From Bacteriovoracaceae bacterium (GTDB lineage: Bacteria; Bdellovibrionota; Bacteriovoracia; Bacteriovoracales; Bacteriovoracaceae): 64,000 nt of DNA. Made by a program: the position numbers and the translations under genes. Below, in pieces: positions 54,129-61,742 of this stretch (the first letter of the stretch is position 1; every line of letters begins with the position of its first letter). The stretch is from the NCBI GenBank assembly GCA_025210745.1, contig JAOARC010000050.1, forward strand, positions 1 to 64,000, read 5' to 3'. The notes below the pieces were generated by a model. That model saw only the letters and a program-made list of their open reading frames with translations. It made no database searches and was not told the DNA's origin.

Positions 54129-54809
54129 ATGATCATAACCTTTTCAATTATTTTTATAGCGATATTTTTAAGATATTTATTATTTTCTATCATCCTAGAA
54201 AAATTAGTTAAAAAAAAGAATAAGATTATCAATAAAAAACGATCAAAAGAACTTATTAAGTTTGAAATAAAGCAATCATGCATAACTTCACTAGTCTTTG
54301 CACTTGGAATGAGCCATCTTTTTCATTTATGGCAAAATAACGTTCTTATTTTTAAAAGTGAATTTAACCTTTTATCGCAATTAATCGTATTGCTAGTTTT
54401 TCTTTTTATTCATGATACATATTACTATTTTTTACATAGGGCCATGCATACAAAAGTACTTTATAATTTTACACATAAGGCCCATCATAGATCTATTACA
54501 ACTAGTGGTTATACAGCATTTTCATTCAACTTTATAGAAGCTTTTTTTCAGCTTCTGCCTATTTATATAATGATTTTAGTTTTACCATTTAACTTTATCA
54601 CTCTTGTTATAGCTCTTATATTTATGAGTATATCAGGGACAATGAATCATATAAACTATGAGTTTTATCCTAAATGGCTTCAAAAATTCTTTATTGGAGC
54701 TCATCATCACAGCCTTCATCATAAAAAATTTAAAGTAAACTATGGTTTGTATTTTACTTTTTGGGATATTGTTTTAAAAACAGAGCATAAAAAAAGCCCC
54801 ACATTGTAG
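54129..54809 (+). CDS. Fatty-acid hydroxylase / sterol-desaturase family membrane enzyme
   Basis: Di-iron integral membrane oxygenase. The 226 residues have about four TM helices and the His-box set of the family: HDTYYYFLHRAMH near 97-109, HKAHH near 119, and HHHSLHHKKFKVNYG near 195. Members hydroxylate or desaturate fatty acids, sterols or carotenoids. Substrate cannot be told; ceramide-like, carotenoid or fatty acyl are options. It forms a unit with the DUF2141 gene, and its stop lies inside the bidirectional terminator before ahcY. Confidence 0.9.
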   Translation: MIITFSIIFIAIFLRYLLFSIILEKLVKKKNKIINKKRSKELIKFEIKQSCITSLVFALGMSHLFHLWQNNVLIFKSEFNLLSQLIVLLVFLFIHDTYYYFLHRAMHTKVLYNFTHKAHHRSITTSGYTAFSFNFIEAFFQLLPIYIMILVLPFNFITLVIALIFMSISGTMNHINYEFYPKWLQKFFIGAHHHSLHHKKFKVNYGLYFTFWDIVLKTEHKKSPTL

Positions 54810-54842: not shown

Positions 54843-56177
54843 CTAGTATCTATAGTGTTCTGGCTTATAAGGTCCATCAACTTTAACATCAATATACTTA
54901 GCTTGATCTTCGCTTAATACTTCAAGTTCAACACCAATTTTAGCTAAATGTAATCTTGCAACTTTTTCATCTAAATGCTTTGGAAGCATATATACTTCAT
55001 TTTTATAAGCATCAGTATTTGTCCAAAGTTCGATTTGAGCTAATGTTTGGTTTGTAAATGAGTTACTCATAACAAATGAAGGATGGCCCGTAGCACATCC
55101 AAGGTTTACTAATCTTCCTTCTGCTAAAACGATAATCTCATTTCCTTTAACATTATAAATATCAACCTGAGGCTTAACTTCTACTTTTGAGTCTCCGTAA
55201 TTTTTATTTAACCATGCCATATCGATTTCATTATCAAAGTGACCAATATTACAAACGATCGCTTTATCTTTCATTCTTTCAAAGTGCTTACCAACGATAA
55301 TGTCTTTATTTCCAGTTGTTGTAACAAAGATATCTCCTTCTTCAACAACAGTATCAAGTTTTTTAACTTCAAAACCATCCATTGCAGCTTGAAGAGCACA
55401 AATTGGATCGATCTCAGTAACGATAACTCTTACTCCAGATCCTCTTAATGAAGCTGCTGATCCTTTACCAACATCTCCGTATCCACAAACAACAGCTACT
55501 TTTCCGGCCATCATAACATCAGTTGCTCTTCTGATTGCATCAACACATGACTCTTTACATCCGTATTTGTTATCAAACTTAGACTTTGTAACTGAATCAT
55601 TTACATTGATTGCTGGCATTGGAAGAGTTCCATTTTTAACTCTTTCATAAAGTCTATGAACACCAGTTGTCGTCTCTTCAGATAGTCCTTTGATATCTTT
55701 AACAAGATGAGGAAATCTATCTAAAACCATGTTCGTTAAGTCTCCACCATCATCTAAAATCATATTAAGTGGCTTTCCATCCTTAAATGTAGTTAATGTT
55801 TTTTCAATACACCAATCAAACTCTTCTTCAGTCATTCCTTTCCAAGCAAACACAGGAATTCCAGCTGCTGCGATTGCTGCTGCTGCATGATCCTGAGTTG
55901 AGAAGATATTACAAGAAGACCAAGTTACATCAGCCCCAAGCTCTACTAAAGTCTCAATTAATACTGCTGTTTGTATTGTCATATGAAGACATCCAGCAAT
56001 TCTAGCTCCTTTTAGTGGCTTCGATTCACCATACTCTGATCGAAGTGACATAAGTCCTGGCATCTCCGCTTCAGCTAGTTTGATTTCTTTTCTTCCCCAG
56101 TCAGCAAGAGATATATCTTTTACTCTGTAGTTTAAATTTTGAGCATTATTTTCTTGAGTAATTTTTGTTGTTTCCAT
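54843..56177 (-). CDS. ahcY: S-adenosylhomocysteine hydrolase
   Basis: Splits SAH into adenosine and homocysteine, which keeps methyltransferases active. The 444 residues show [28 protein letters not shown], the catalytic [19 protein letters not shown]-binding [28 protein letters not shown], and the terminal KPEHYRY. AAGGA precedes the ATG. No SAH riboswitch-like GC-rich structure is seen in the 249-base upstream region. A methyltransferase gene is divergent from it. Confidence 0.97.
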
Positions 56178-56426: not shown

Positions 56427-57218
56427 ATGGGCTACATACTATCTGGAAAAAATGAACCTAAAAGACTAGATGATCAATCAAGCACTGAAGAATTCAGCTT
56501 AAAAGGTGAATTATCACAAATAATGCCAAAAGATGGAAGTAAAGTACTAGATGCCGGCTGTGGGTCAGGAGTTTTATGTCGATACTTAAATCAGCAAAAA
56601 CTTAATCTACAACTTCATGGATGCGATATTAGCAAAGAAAGTCTATCCTATGCAAAAAACAACTCATCTAAAAATATCAACTTCTTTACTCATAATTTTG
56701 TAGATTCTGCTCCGCCCAATCAATACGATGTTATTTACAATAGACTTGTTGCTCATCACCTTGGAGAAGAATTGACCTATAAAGGATATTGTAACCTTTA
56801 CAAGTCTCTCAATAATGGCGGAAAACTTCATGTTATAGATGTTGATGGAATTATGATTAATATAGGGAGCTCTAACAAACAACTAACCCAAAAAGTTTAT
56901 GAAATATCACAAGGCTTTCAAGGGTCCTTTAATACCGCCAGACATATTCCTCATCTATTAGCCAAAATAGGATTTAAAAATATCAAATGGCAAATTCAGA
57001 TTATGGATTTTCAAAACAAAGATAGAGTTTTAGAAGCAATTCAATGGAAAGAAAGACTTACAAGTGCAAAAGACTTTCTTCTAAATTTCTTTGACAGCGA
57101 GTTTGAAGTTCATAAATTTATCAAAAACTATACAGAAGAAATTTCAAAAGAAACGACAGTATTATTTTATAATAAGTTTATTATATCTGCTCAAAAAGAA
57201 ACCCCAAATATCTCATAA
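56427..57218 (+). CDS. Class I SAM-dependent methyltransferase, substrate unknown
   Basis: 263 residues. SAM motif I VLDAGCGSGVLCRYL lies near 39-53, motif II GCDISKESLSYAKNN near 73, and a YDVIYNRLVAHHL post-II strand near 100. The C-terminal half is variable, as in small-molecule methyltransferases (UbiE/COQ5-like). It is the first of three closely spaced plus-strand genes (gaps of 59 and 3 bases) with an acyl-CoA dehydrogenase and an acyltransferase-like protein, which suggests a common small product. Confidence 0.85.
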   Translation: MGYILSGKNEPKRLDDQSSTEEFSLKGELSQIMPKDGSKVLDAGCGSGVLCRYLNQQKLNLQLHGCDISKESLSYAKNNSSKNINFFTHNFVDSAPPNQYDVIYNRLVAHHLGEELTYKGYCNLYKSLNNGGKLHVIDVDGIMINIGSSNKQLTQKVYEISQGFQGSFNTARHIPHLLAKIGFKNIKWQIQIMDFQNKDRVLEAIQWKERLTSAKDFLLNFFDSEFEVHKFIKNYTEEISKETTVLFYNKFIISAQKETPNIS

Positions 57219-57277
57219 GAGTACAACTGAATAGTACATTTTAATAAAAACATCTTTTTATTACTAAGGAATGAAGA

Positions 57278-58447
57278 ATGGGAATTACTAAAAAAAGTTA
57301 TAATCAAGATAATCAATATATTTTAGAAGAACTAAAAAAATTTGTAAAAAGCGAAATTGCGCCATATGAAACAACATGGGATAAAGAAAACACCTTTCCT
57401 CTTGATATTTCCAAGCAATTACATCGTCTTGGCTGGTTACAAAGTTTTATTCCCACGCATTTAGGAGGCTTAGGATTGTCAACCTCAACTCTATGCCAGA
57501 TGTATAAAACAATAGCTCAAGAATCCAGGGGTATTACAACCTCAATGGCTGGGAATATGCTTGCTTTTTTACCTATAATAAAACACGGATCTAAAAAGCT
57601 TCAAGATAAAATAATTAAACGCTATTTAAATGATTTTTTTCTTATGAGTTTTTGTTTTACAGAACCTGATTCAGGTAGCAATGTTTTTAATATAAAAACT
57701 AATGCTAATAAAGTAGATAAAGGCTTTGTTTTAAATGGAAAAAAGTGCTTTGTTACAAATGCTAATTACTCCGAATATCTTTTAGTTGTAGCTGTAAATA
57801 AAGATATAACTAATTCTAAAAATAATTTTTCTTTATTTTGTATTCCAAAGAACTCTAAAGGAGTAAAGGTTGCATCTGCCTATAATAAAATAGGACATAG
57901 ATCTTCTAATACTTCTGAAATATTTTTTGAAGATGTCTTTGTGCCATTAGAAAACTGTATTGGTCTTGATGGAAATGGAATCAACATTGCTTTTGATTCA
58001 ATACAAAGAAGTCGAATTTTTCTAAGTTCCTCTGCTATTGGACTTTGTGAAAAAGCTTTCGATATAACTTGTAACTACTTAGAAAATAGATCTATCTATG
58101 GAAAACCTCTTCTTTCAAAAGAGCAAATTAGAGGTAAATTATCTGATCTCTATACAAAAAAACATGCTGGCTGGTTACTAACTCTAGATGCTGCTGAAAA
58201 GTGGGACTCAGGAGATAATTCTTTTGTTCCGTCTAGTATGGCAAAGCTTTATTGCGGAAATATTGCCATGGATTTTTCAAGAGAATGTATGGAGTTTTTT
58301 GGTGCATGGGGCTTAACGAAAGAGTATCCCATAGAGCTTCTTTATAGAGATGCGAAGTTCTATGAAATACTTGAAGGTGCAACTTTTGTACAACAGGCCA
58401 TCATCTCAAAAGAAATATTTAGAAAGAAAATAAAACTCGTAGGATAA
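57278..58447 (+). CDS. Acyl-CoA (or acyl-ACP) dehydrogenase
   Basis: FAD enzyme that introduces an alpha,beta double bond into an acyl thioester. The 389 residues have the family order: helical N-domain, SFCFTEPDSGSNVFNIKTNA, LNGKKCFVTNANYSEYLLVVA, and the C-terminal YEILEGATFVQQAIISKE with the catalytic Glu in the LEGAT position. An isolated dehydrogenase beside acyltransferase and methyltransferase genes, without other beta-oxidation genes, is more usual in secondary metabolism than in fatty-acid breakdown; that is inference. A GAAGAATG-type ribosome site (AAGGAATGAAG) precedes the ATG. Confidence 0.93.
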   Translation: MGITKKSYNQDNQYILEELKKFVKSEIAPYETTWDKENTFPLDISKQLHRLGWLQSFIPTHLGGLGLSTSTLCQMYKTIAQESRGITTSMAGNMLAFLPIIKHGSKKLQDKIIKRYLNDFFLMSFCFTEPDSGSNVFNIKTNANKVDKGFVLNGKKCFVTNANYSEYLLVVAVNKDITNSKNNFSLFCIPKNSKGVKVASAYNKIGHRSSNTSEIFFEDVFVPLENCIGLDGNGINIAFDSIQRSRIFLSSSAIGLCEKAFDITCNYLENRSIYGKPLLSKEQIRGKLSDLYTKKHAGWLLTLDAAEKWDSGDNSFVPSSMAKLYCGNIAMDFSRECMEFFGAWGLTKEYPIELLYRDAKFYEILEGATFVQQAIISKEIFRKKIKLVG

Positions 58448-58450
58448 ATA

Positions 58451-59218
58451 ATGATTAATAATTTAATTGATGAATCTATCTTTGTTAATATTAATGAAAA
58501 AAAAGTTGCTTATATCACCATAAATCATCCATATTCAAGTCTTGGAGAAAAAAGAGTTAACTATTTTTTTTCGGCACTAATGGCATTTAAAAGAGATGGG
58601 TACTTAAAACATTTTCCATATGGAACTCTTCCTTTTGATGTATCAGACTTCATTTCGACTCATCATATTTTTATAGAAAAAAGACATAATGATTTTAAAA
58701 TCATTATGTCTTACAAAACAATATCAAACAAAGTATGTGATATTCATAGAGTATTACTTCCAATAACTGAAATTTTTTTGAAAAATGATTTGGCAGAGCA
58801 CAGACTCGCCTTAGATAACTTTACCAAAAAAGATGAAATCTCTTATGGATTTGGCTGGACTATTTCTCCCGAAATATCTTGCATTAATACAAGAAAGCTT
58901 TTAAAAGAACTTTTTTTATCAACACTATTTAACTACTATAGATATAAAGGTATTCAAAAATCAACCTGCCTAGGTGTTTTAACATCTAGAACAGACCAAT
59001 TCTTTCTCAACTTTGGGTACCAACCTCTTTTTAATGAAACAACTAAAGAGTATCTTAAAAGTTTTTCCGTTAAAGAATTTAATGATATTGAAGCAAAACT
59101 ACTTGTTTGCGATAACTTTAGCTTACAAGCAAGACAACTTGGCAAGAAATATTATGACCTATTTAAAAAAGGATATGATTTTCTAGAACATGATGTTTCT
59201 CGCAAAAAAGTTGCTTAA
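58451..59218 (+). CDS. Acyltransferase-like protein (GNAT/FeeM/autoinducer-synthase type, tentative)
   Basis: 255 residues. The middle and end read like the GNAT-related acyl-homoserine-lactone/FeeM group: IEKRHNDFKIIMSYKT, DEISYGFGWTISPEI at the place of the EisR motif, a helix LKELFLSTLFNYYRYKGIQ, and a C-terminal TSRTDQFFLNFGYQPL that mirrors the G-x-R/F...GY ending of GNATs. Such enzymes move an acyl chain from ACP or CoA to an amine. Substrate is unknown and the family call is by eye. It starts three bases after the dehydrogenase stop. Confidence 0.5.
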   Translation: MINNLIDESIFVNINEKKVAYITINHPYSSLGEKRVNYFFSALMAFKRDGYLKHFPYGTLPFDVSDFISTHHIFIEKRHNDFKIIMSYKTISNKVCDIHRVLLPITEIFLKNDLAEHRLALDNFTKKDEISYGFGWTISPEISCINTRKLLKELFLSTLFNYYRYKGIQKSTCLGVLTSRTDQFFLNFGYQPLFNETTKEYLKSFSVKEFNDIEAKLLVCDNFSLQARQLGKKYYDLFKKGYDFLEHDVSRKKVA

Positions 59219-59252
59219 AAGATATATAATTTTTATTTAAAATACTAAAGAT

Positions 59253-60107
59253 TCAAAAAAGACTTTTATCTTTTATTATATAGTCTATATGTTCAGAACC
59301 TAAATGATAAAATGTATTAACATCTATAATCTCAAAAGATGGTAGTCCATAAAGAAGAGGGAAAAATCTTATAGCACTTTGCCTATATAACATTGAACGC
59401 TCATTTGTAATCATCTTCGAATTAAATATTTCATGGGTTTTATTATAAGCTCGAGATCTCAAGGTAAATAAGTCCCCTCTAAAAATAACATCATAATAAT
59501 AAAAATTTCTTTCAATTTTATGTACATTTTGAACAATATAGAGAGCTATATCTGACATCCGATAAAAATGATAATCAGTAGTAAGCTTTTTTTTAAACCC
59601 ACTAGAGCAGGAAATAAGTCCCATTTTTACAATGTCATATTTAGTAAGTGAATATTCATTAGAAATAAAGTCTATTAACTTTTGTGCCAGAACTAAATTT
59701 ACTAATAAATCATCGTTATCAACAGCCTCTTGAGATAAGTCGAACCGATTTAGAACATATTGAGAAACTCTCTTATTCAGCTTGTTGCCAACGTAATCCA
59801 GCATAGACCTAATATTTCTCATATAAGTCCCTGCATTAACTTTATATTCATCAGGGATATCACAAGTCGTTTTCAAAAATTTTCTTCTTATATTATCAAA
59901 GTCCAGTCTATTGTAAGCAATGTCATCAACATTTACGCCTAAAAAACTAGAAATCTTAACAATATCGGAAAAGCGATACTCACCGCTAAGCTTAATTCTA
60001 TCAAACTCCGTTTTTTTTAATTGTAAAATATCACACATAAAGTCTTCATCCCAATATAAAGACCTCTGAATATTATTTATAGTTTCTACAATATTAGATT
60101 GGATCAT
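59253..60107 (-). CDS. HTH regulator-like protein, second gene of pair
   Basis: 284 residues with an N-terminal helical domain (about 15-65; ILQLKKTEFDRIKLSGEYRFSDIVKISSFLGVNVDDI) that looks like a divergent XRE-type helix-turn-helix. The long C-terminal part (about 70-284) is predicted helical then mixed, and ends in SMLYRQSAIRFFPLLYGLPSFEIIDVNTFYHLGSEHIDYIIK. I do not recognise that domain; a sensor or ligand-binding role is a guess. It overlaps the XRE gene by four bases and converges on the acyl cassette with 34 bases between. Confidence 0.6.
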   Translation of the reverse strand: MIQSNIVETINNIQRSLYWDEDFMCDILQLKKTEFDRIKLSGEYRFSDIVKISSFLGVNVDDIAYNRLDFDNIRRKFLKTTCDIPDEYKVNAGTYMRNIRSMLDYVGNKLNKRVSQYVLNRFDLSQEAVDNDDLLVNLVLAQKLIDFISNEYSLTKYDIVKMGLISCSSGFKKKLTTDYHFYRMSDIALYIVQNVHKIERNFYYYDVIFRGDLFTLRSRAYNKTHEIFNSKMITNERSMLYRQSAIRFFPLLYGLPSFEIIDVNTFYHLGSEHIDYIIKDKSLF

Positions 60108-60817
60108 GAAACTTTTAGTAAGACCTTGTCTGACACATCTTTAACTTCGTAAGAAAACCTTTTGTTTAAATCTAAGCATGTTTCTAGAAATGAAAGCTCT
60201 GCACTTTCAGTATCTTTTATAATTTGACTAGTAGTAGAATTCTTAAAACTTAAAACAACAAGATTTCCCATATTTGAAAGTTCCTCAATTTTAAAAGAAT
60301 TAAAATGATGAATAATACTAGAAATATCTTTTGTATCTGACTTTTCAGGTATCTCTAATAAAATCTGCTCTTTTGCTTCTTCATACTCACTAGGAAAATG
60401 CTTTTGAAGGAATTTAAAAAAATGAGGTGTAAACTTAAATGACGAAAATACAAAAAGAGATTTTTTTATTTTTAAAAGTTTATAAAGATCTTTTTCAACT
60501 TTTTCGTCTATTTTCTTTACAAATTCATAAGCAAGACGCACTGAAAACCCATCTTTACCAATAAACTTCGAATTTATATTTTTAGCTAACCTACTTGGTA
60601 TCTTATTTATGAAACCGGATTGAAAATACTTAATATCATACCCAACTAAATCACAAAATCCTAAGATTAAACCAAAACTCACATCTTCATGAAAGTTTCT
60701 TTCCATCTTTGAAATTGTTGATTGAGCAACATCTAGTTTTTTAGCGACTTCAGCTTGCTTTAAACCAGACTCCAACCTAATTGCTTCAAATACTTCACCA
60801 GTTGTAAACTTATACAT
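60104..60817 (-). CDS. XRE-family transcriptional regulator
   Basis: 237 residues. Residues about 6-60 form a clear Cro/CI helix-turn-helix: EVFEAIRLESGLKQAEVAKKLDVAQSTISKMERNF. The remaining 175 residues are a helical-plus-strand domain (about 85-235; FSVRLAYEFVKKIDEKVEKDLYKLLKI) likely to sense a ligand or dimerise. GAAGG precedes the ATG. It heads a two-gene unit. Target genes are unknown; the neighbouring acyl cassette is the obvious candidate. Confidence 0.82.
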   Translation of the reverse strand: MYKFTTGEVFEAIRLESGLKQAEVAKKLDVAQSTISKMERNFHEDVSFGLILGFCDLVGYDIKYFQSGFINKIPSRLAKNINSKFIGKDGFSVRLAYEFVKKIDEKVEKDLYKLLKIKKSLFVFSSFKFTPHFFKFLQKHFPSEYEEAKEQILLEIPEKSDTKDISSIIHHFNSFKIEELSNMGNLVVLSFKNSTTSQIIKDTESAELSFLETCLDLNKRFSYEVKDVSDKVLLKVS

Positions 60818-60878: not shown

Positions 60879-61742
60879 CTACTTTAGTGTAAATAAAAAC
60901 TTATCTAGTCTTTCGATATGCGCAAAGTGCCCAGCTCGATCAAAAATATCAACTTCTACATCCTTAAAAATTTTAGTAGATACCTCTAGTTGCTCCGACA
61001 CCTTAGAAACAGGATCTTGTTTTCCAAAGATCAACTTGGCTTTACCTGTGTAATTCAATCTAGTATATGATTGCTGTGGCATTGTTTTTAGAACACCAAA
61101 AAAAGCCGGGACATCAAATTGAAATTGACCTACAAAATATTGGAAGTAATTTAAAAAGCTATCCGTATTTGTAAAATAATGAGTCATTAAAACTTTATCT
61201 GTTAATGCAATAGAAAAAGCTTTTAACCAATTATCATCGAACGTATTTCCCATAAGGCCAATTAGATTTTTAAGCTCTAAAGCTTTGGCCTTATCTTCTT
61301 TAGAAAAGTCTCCTACAGCTAAATTTAAAATATTCTTAAAGGCCGGTAAGTAGTTTAAAGCTGGACTAATAAAAATAATGTCTTCTACTTCAATCTCTAA
61401 AGAATTTATCATATTAGCAGCTATAATTGATCCATAGCTATGAGCAATAAAGCTAACTTTAACTAAATCATTCTTGGAAACCACTTCACTAGTAAAGTTT
61501 AAAGCCGACTTAACTGAAGCTTCGAAAGCAAAGGCATCACTATAAGTATCTCCTTGCGGCCTTAAGGAAGAAGGTTCATTCCAAAAAAAGATCTTATCTC
61601 CATTTAACTCTATTTTATTTTTTATTATATTAAACTCGGGATTAGAGTTCATTCCCGGACCACCATGCAAATAAATATAGGATTTTGCCCAAGAATTCAG
61701 CGATAAAGTAGTAAAAACAAAAACTAATAATAGTTTATTCAT
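60879..61742 (-). CDS. Secreted alpha/beta hydrolase
   Basis: 287 residues with a signal peptide (about 1-19, ending WAK). Hydrolase features: HGGPGMNSN oxyanion loop near 27, nucleophile Ser in FIAHSYGSI (near 103), IFGKQDPV with the acid Asp, and RAGHFAHIERL with the catalytic His near the C-terminus. HGGPG is common in proline iminopeptidases, esterases and haloperoxidases; the true substrate is unknown. A GAGGAG ribosome site precedes the ATG. Single gene. Confidence 0.85.
   Translation of the reverse strand: MNKLLLVFVFTTLSLNSWAKSYIYLHGGPGMNSNPEFNIIKNKIELNGDKIFFWNEPSSLRPQGDTYSDAFAFEASVKSALNFTSEVVSKNDLVKVSFIAHSYGSIIAANMINSLEIEVEDIIFISPALNYLPAFKNILNLAVGDFSKEDKAKALELKNLIGLMGNTFDDNWLKAFSIALTDKVLMTHYFTNTDSFLNYFQYFVGQFQFDVPAFFGVLKTMPQQSYTRLNYTGKAKLIFGKQDPVSKVSEQLEVSTKIFKDVEVDIFDRAGHFAHIERLDKFLFTLK

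Follow-up and report, generated by a model that had tools for sequence, protein, structure and literature searches.

Do five neighbouring genes in a Bacteriovoracaceae genome make and sense a small molecule? The genes lie in a stretch of 64,000 nucleotides (GenBank assembly GCA_025210745.1, contig JAOARC010000050.1, positions 1 to 64,000), called the window here, from a 2.7-Mb draft genome that is 88% complete. The original prediction, made from the letters alone, had placed five open reading frames at 56427-60817, with small gaps and with two minus-strand genes converging on three plus-strand genes. This is exactly what is present: a methyltransferase (MT), an acyl-CoA dehydrogenase (ACAD) and an acyltransferase (AT) on the plus strand, and two helix-turn-helix (HTH) regulators, HTH2 and XRE, on the minus strand. 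The calls for MT, ACAD and XRE agree with Pfam (Methyltransf_25, ACAD domains and HTH_3), and the predicted biosynthesis-plus-sensing cassette has gained support from the sensor fold modelled for the regulators and from the co-evolution of synthase and regulator. We conclude that the locus probably encodes both the synthase and the receptors of a small, hydrophobic acyl metabolite.

The proposed synthase is AT (58451..59218, plus strand, 255 amino acids). It has no usable match by sequence search in Pfam, NCBIfam, PHROGs or the PDB sequences, so comparison of folds and profiles was needed. A contig scan with the window AT alone as the query found no match; homologues of 22-32% identity are present in 48 of the 129 genomes of its own class. 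The AlphaFold2 model, generated from an input alignment of 46 sequences, has a mean pLDDT of 92.8. When the model was compared with the PDB by Foldseek, chains of FeeM (2g0b) took ranks 1, 2, 3, 5 and 8 (best E 4.6e-5; TM-score about 0.5 by query and 0.67 by target). LasI, MesI and BjaI appear at ranks 11, 12 and 16, with arylalkylamine and agmatine N-acetyltransferases alongside. The AT family also has a colinear match over 182 columns, at 90% probability, to a profile of FeeM-family proteins picked from relatives by PF21926, compared with 0.8% for a control comparison of AT with HTH2. A FeeM/GNAT-type fold, which the original prediction had offered as a weak assignment, is well supported by the model. 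The proposed search against autoinducer-synthase and FeeM models gave no direct match: PF21926 is not matched by the window AT or by its 45 homologues, and an autoinducer-synthase model is not matched by the window AT in Pfam and NCBIfam or by the homologues in Pfam. The source genome has no member of PF13444 (Acetyltransf_5). Invariant or near-invariant residues of the AT family are Y51, D66, H71, G189 and W238, all present in the window AT except W238, which is replaced by F. The D63-x-x-D66 spacing recalls the D-x-x-D of LuxI proteins. TyzA, which N-acylates tyrosine and phenylalanine, has FeeM and BjaI as its closest structural matches (PMC10404671), and AT occupies the same structural neighbourhood.

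Two further observations concern this gene. Several Bacteriovoracaceae genomes also encode proteins of 400-540 amino acids that truly match Pfam FeeM and are distinct from the AT family (L135-L138, in genomes G123, G010, G077 and G007); G123 has five Pfam FeeM matches and no AT. Within the AT coding sequence is a perfect 32-nt palindrome (AAGACATAATGATTTT/AAAATCATTATGTCTT, 58681-58712). It was rejected as an operator because the genome has no second copy at up to 3 mismatches. Consensus scans for promoters and terminators gave chance-level matches only.

What might the regulators sense? Convergent with AT, across 34 bp, is HTH2 (59253..60107, minus strand, 284 amino acids), which overlaps by 4 bp with XRE (60104..60817, minus strand, 237 amino acids; HTH_3, 4e-8). 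The window HTH2 has no meaningful match in Pfam, NCBIfam or PHROGs. In Foldseek the top PDB folds for its AlphaFold2 model (pLDDT 92.5) are H-NOX proteins, with TRAPP Bet3 lower down. Scanned singly, 4 of 39 HTH2 homologues match Pfam V4R (best 4.8e-9) and one matches Pfam HNOB (0.006). V4R and Bet3 are homologous (PMC2253512, PMC5468417), and the ligands of V4R domains are believed to be hydrophobic (PMC2253512). The HTH2 (proximal) and XRE (distal) families match each other over 273 columns at 99.9% probability and are, on this profile comparison, full-length paralogues, each with an HTH and a predicted V4R/H-NOX/Bet3-like domain. Distal regulators have the canonical XRE motif and proximal regulators a degenerate HTH; this split is blurred in some loci. 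HTH2 had been predicted to be a divergent HTH protein with an unknown C-terminal domain. The HTH is there, in degenerate form, but the protein is now recognisable as a paralogue of XRE, and the domain as V4R/H-NOX/Bet3-like.

The H-NOX folds, and the one relative that matches HNOB, suggest a different reading in which HTH2 is a heme-containing H-NOX regulator of lipid modification genes and the locus a gas- or redox-sensing unit. However, V4R is matched by more relatives. No fold histidine is conserved among the 39 homologues, the sole histidine-rich column being at the C-terminal end with gaps in 16 of the 39 rows, and the H-NOX motif YxSxR is found in just 1 of 39. Heme in HTH2 is therefore unlikely, and a gas- or redox-sensing role for the locus is highly improbable.

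Do these genes stay together in other genomes? Within Bdellovibrionota, the phylum to which the comparison extends, the AT family is present in 98 of 369 genomes (E <= 0.001), about 15 of these being marginal. A search of plasmids gave no AT homologue. Neighbourhoods were counted in 81 AT loci of relatives, and in 63 of these an HTH-V4R gene is directly beside AT. The orientation of the pair is convergent in 55 cases, tandem in 6 and divergent in 4. Genes no more than four positions from AT (n=468) were contrasted with those at least six away (n=255): HTH genes number 122 near and 0 far, methyltransferase genes 43 and 1, and alpha/beta hydrolase genes 42 and 2. ThiF-type enzymes show the same enrichment close to AT and have all but disappeared at a distance of six genes. 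The hydrolases belong to one subfamily, which has a homologue within five genes of AT in 46 of the 81 loci. In the window the hydrolase, ABH (60879..61742, minus strand; Abhydrolase_1, 7.6e-7), carries the motifs HGGPG and AHSYG, and its N-terminus resembles a signal peptide. Since ABH lies on the strand of XRE and upstream of it, the unit comprises six genes; the predicted cassette of five is real but incomplete. Could these instead be housekeeping genes that have become neighbours by chance in the source genome? Few relatives keep ACAD here, and the sole same-genus genome compared lacks AT, but the phylum-wide adjacency and enrichment contradict this explanation, and we regard it as extremely improbable.

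Some regulators are found without the synthase. Tandem HTH-V4R pairs with no nearby AT are present at L123 and L124 (G010:C36 and G005:C13) and at L125-L129, and the first two carry the same alpha/beta hydrolase. These pairs are possible receptor solos, though the draft genomes may simply miss AT. Seven loci with AT and regulators (L036, L045, L046, L052, L054, L062 and L073) have nearby genes for histidine-kinase-like ATPase proteins of about 205-216 amino acids (clusters C8 and C14).

Have synthase and regulator evolved as a pair? Protein distances were compared in 24 genomes, with partial correlation to remove rpoB distance and a permutation test. The distances of AT and the proximal regulator correlate at r = 0.74, unchanged after rpoB removal (permutation p 0.001), and those of AT and the distal regulator at 0.70. 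Correlations with rpoB are 0.09 for AT and 0.17 for the regulator. Because AT follows rpoB so weakly, the AT-regulator pair is off the species tree. Linked genes that are merely co-transferred should all correlate, so the AT-regulator excess fits a synthase-receptor pair. The AT and HTH-V4R trees behave as cognate pairs are expected to.

This result bears on the proposal that the locus is an ordinary cluster for an N-acyl amino acid lipid, surfactant or antibiotic, in which the HTH-V4R pair are local homeostatic sensors of the product or of a hydrophobic precursor and no signal passes between cells. In its favour, the lipids of tyz and trz, the relatives whose chemistry is best characterised, are mainly in cell pellets (PMC10404671), and clusters of the stieleriacine type join an N-acyl amino acid synthase, a methyltransferase, ThiF and an oxidase with no known signalling role (PMC12479983). 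However, strong synthase-regulator co-evolution that is independent of species, together with receptor pairs that have no synthase, fits a signal better, and no product exporter recurs in the AT neighbourhood clusters. On balance we consider the local-lipid proposal unlikely, while giving it real weight.

The product of AT would need finishing, and here the loci differ. MT (56427..57218, plus strand, 263 amino acids) is a class I S-adenosylmethionine-dependent methyltransferase (Methyltransf_25, 1.8e-13) and the proposed capping enzyme. Homologues are near AT in 44 of the 81 loci. MT is replaceable: 43 loci have MT only, 25 have a ThiF-type enzyme only, one has both and 12 have neither, several of the loci without either lying near contig ends. 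In the locus with both (L057), the methyltransferase-like gene encodes 348 amino acids and is four genes from AT. The identity of ThiF as PF00899 has been confirmed in four loci. Since the loci are related, the Fisher test for this exclusivity (p = 7e-11) is descriptive only. A quick AT tree requires at least 8 switches between MT and ThiF, a pattern of repeated replacement and not of two ancient clades. Cyclisation of N-acyl amino acids is carried out by TyzB and by the ThiF domains in OxzB and TrzS (PMC10404671, PMC12856293). By analogy, the simplest reading is that MT would do an equivalent job, for example by making a methyl ester. Divergent from MT is ahcY (S-adenosylhomocysteine hydrolase, 54843-56177), which would recycle the MT by-product; no such gene recurs in the AT neighbourhoods of relatives, so its position here is probably a coincidence. 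A few genes upstream is a fatty acid hydroxylase-family membrane protein (54129-54809), preceded immediately by a DUF2141 gene, with no recurrence seen near AT.

ACAD (57278..58447, plus strand, 389 amino acids) is 59 bp from MT and 3 bp from AT. All three Pfam ACAD domains, N, M and C, are present (best 5.6e-31), as is the catalytic-Glu motif. Both a related fold and joint conservation of the three plus-strand genes had been expected by the original prediction. The modelled fold is FeeM-like and MT and AT are conserved together, but ACAD adjoins AT in only 3 loci, the window included, and the set of five is therefore not general. The closest homologues of the window ACAD in the phylum, at 48% and 43% identity, are both beside AT, and all others are at 36% or below. 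The two are in distant genomes, at locus L112 together with MT and the hydrolase and at locus L109 together with ThiF, and the catalytic-Glu region EGxTFVQQAI is kept in all three AT-linked proteins. This suggests that ACAD is a rare, dedicated and optional partner. By analogy it is probably a desaturase, in the slot filled by the nitroreductase-family oxidase of oxazolone pathways.

The C-terminus of AT is also conserved. Alanine is the last residue in 41 of 46 AT proteins, versus 5.9% of 597 neighbouring proteins. In a wider set it is terminal in 66 of 78 and often preceded by K or R (KKAA, RKAA, KKVA). The ClpXP C-motifs, which sit at a flexible C-terminus, are C-motif-1 (xAA) and C-motif-2 (RRKKAI or RAKKVA-like). 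The window AT ends in SRKKVA, with low confidence for the terminal residues in the model, and resembles a ClpXP C-motif; E. coli ClpXP substrates with C-motif-2 include YbaQ (RAKKVA) and PaaA (HARKVA), according to the motif table in PMC9775585. Among the partners, the tail is found on 13 of 25 ThiF proteins (L091, L095 and L097 among them) and on 2 of 3 ACAD (L109 and L112, not the window), and is nearly absent from MT (1 of 43) and hydrolase (2 of 42). The tmRNA tag of the source genome ends in MAA. Overlap of the AT and HTH2 genes was rejected as the origin of the tail, since the two genes are separated in the window and gapped loci elsewhere keep it. From its tail sequence AT is probably unstable to proteolysis, which would suit a signal switch.

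Degron-like tails occur in toxin-antitoxin systems too. Could AT be a GNAT toxin with XRE-type antitoxins, one that acetylates a host target such as an aminoacyl-tRNA? A GNAT fold lies beside HTH genes, and KacT is at rank 49 among the AT folds. However, the best folds are FeeM and synthases of N-acyl homoserine lactones (AHLs). AT is mostly convergent to the regulators rather than in an operon with them, the regulators are proteins of about 290 amino acids with a sensor domain rather than small antitoxins, and the biosynthetic partners MT, ThiF, ACAD and hydrolase recur. A toxin is thus very improbable.

How might a synthase-receptor cassette work? With acyl-CoA or acyl-ACP as the donor, AT would acylate the amine of an amino acid or of a similar acceptor. 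MT would then cap the product, most likely by methyl esterification of the free carboxylate; the ThiF-type enzyme that stands in for MT in other lineages would cyclise the carboxylate to an oxazolone. Either cap would give a neutral, membrane-permeant molecule. In the source genome ACAD may introduce a double bond into the acyl chain or the acyl-amino acid. Both HTH-V4R regulators would bind the product in a hydrophobic pocket of the V4R type and control their own operon, the synthase or both, as LuxR does for LuxI products. The hydrolase, the proposed signal remover, would end the signal by opening the ester or ring, and the ClpXP-type tail would keep AT short-lived.

Several observations weigh against this scheme. 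Every Pfam acyltransferase model misses the window AT, and the window HTH2 itself does not match Pfam V4R. MT is assigned at superfamily level only, and among solved structures it is closest to phosphoethanolamine N-methyltransferases, so carboxyl methylation is a guess. AT is tracked weakly by MT (0.33) and by the hydrolase (0.15). Twelve AT loci lack a nearby MT, ThiF or hydrolase, and about half of them also lack an adjacent regulator; the AT homologues in these last (L065, L067, L098, L108, L115 and L116) are perhaps paralogues with another role.

The Bdellovibrionota may have an undescribed chemical signalling system of their own. More tentatively, though we take it seriously, it would be a new class of autoinducer with a FeeM-fold synthase, methyl-ester or oxazolone caps and tandem XRE-V4R receptors in place of LuxR, in which differently tuned pairs move horizontally and some receptors have no synthase. 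The response of predatory Bdellovibrionota to the signals of other bacteria has been studied (PMC8461301), and no autoinducer synthase in these predators is described in the open-access PMC papers found. If the proposal is true, a phylum-wide synthase and a lipid-sensing receptor that is not LuxR would make signalling among Bdellovibrionota directly testable. A natural acyl compound would become available for ligand tests of the V4R fold, and methyl esterification and oxazolone formation would prove to be interchangeable finishes of one signal.

How does the cassette compare with known systems? Synthases of the FeeM/LuxI type and oxazolone-type chemistry are known, while the receptor type and the alternation of capping enzymes were not found described in open-access PMC papers. 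TyzABC, TrzAS and OxzAB (PMC10404671, PMC12856293) have an N-acyltransferase of FeeM fold and a ThiF cyclase, and the ThiF-type loci of the phylum carry both. Their third component is a desaturating flavoenzyme, a nitroreductase-family oxidase; the window has an acyl-CoA dehydrogenase instead. The window, likened to TyzA by fold, also differs in having MT for ThiF (ThiF is in 25-26 of 81 loci of relatives) and in adding HTH-V4R regulators and a hydrolase. FeeM (2g0b) itself is the best structural match of AT and its family the source of the colinear profile match, but AT has about 10% identity to it, is longer, and has dedicated regulators as well as a tail that resembles a degron. The MT-type cassette is predicted to make compounds of the same class as the N-acyl alanine methyl esters (NAMEs) of Roseovarius; in the available part of the paper NAMEs take no part in AHL signalling, no methyltransferase is named, and no genetic link to the AT family was found (PMC11580390).

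On the sensing side, archaeal MsvR and activators of the XylR/PheR type (PMC3729527, PMC10715001) show the same combination of V4R sensor fold and DNA-binding domain. The fusion in the cassette differs in having an N-terminal XRE HTH, in occurring as tandem paralogous pairs and in being coupled to an acyltransferase. As in LuxI/LuxR, an acyltransferase of the same broad fold lies beside a co-evolving regulator, and receptor-like genes also occur without a synthase. The differences from LuxI/LuxR are that AT has no match to the LuxI family model, that the genes, in most cases convergent, are joined by extra capping enzymes, and that a tandem XRE-V4R pair is the proposed receptor in place of LuxR.

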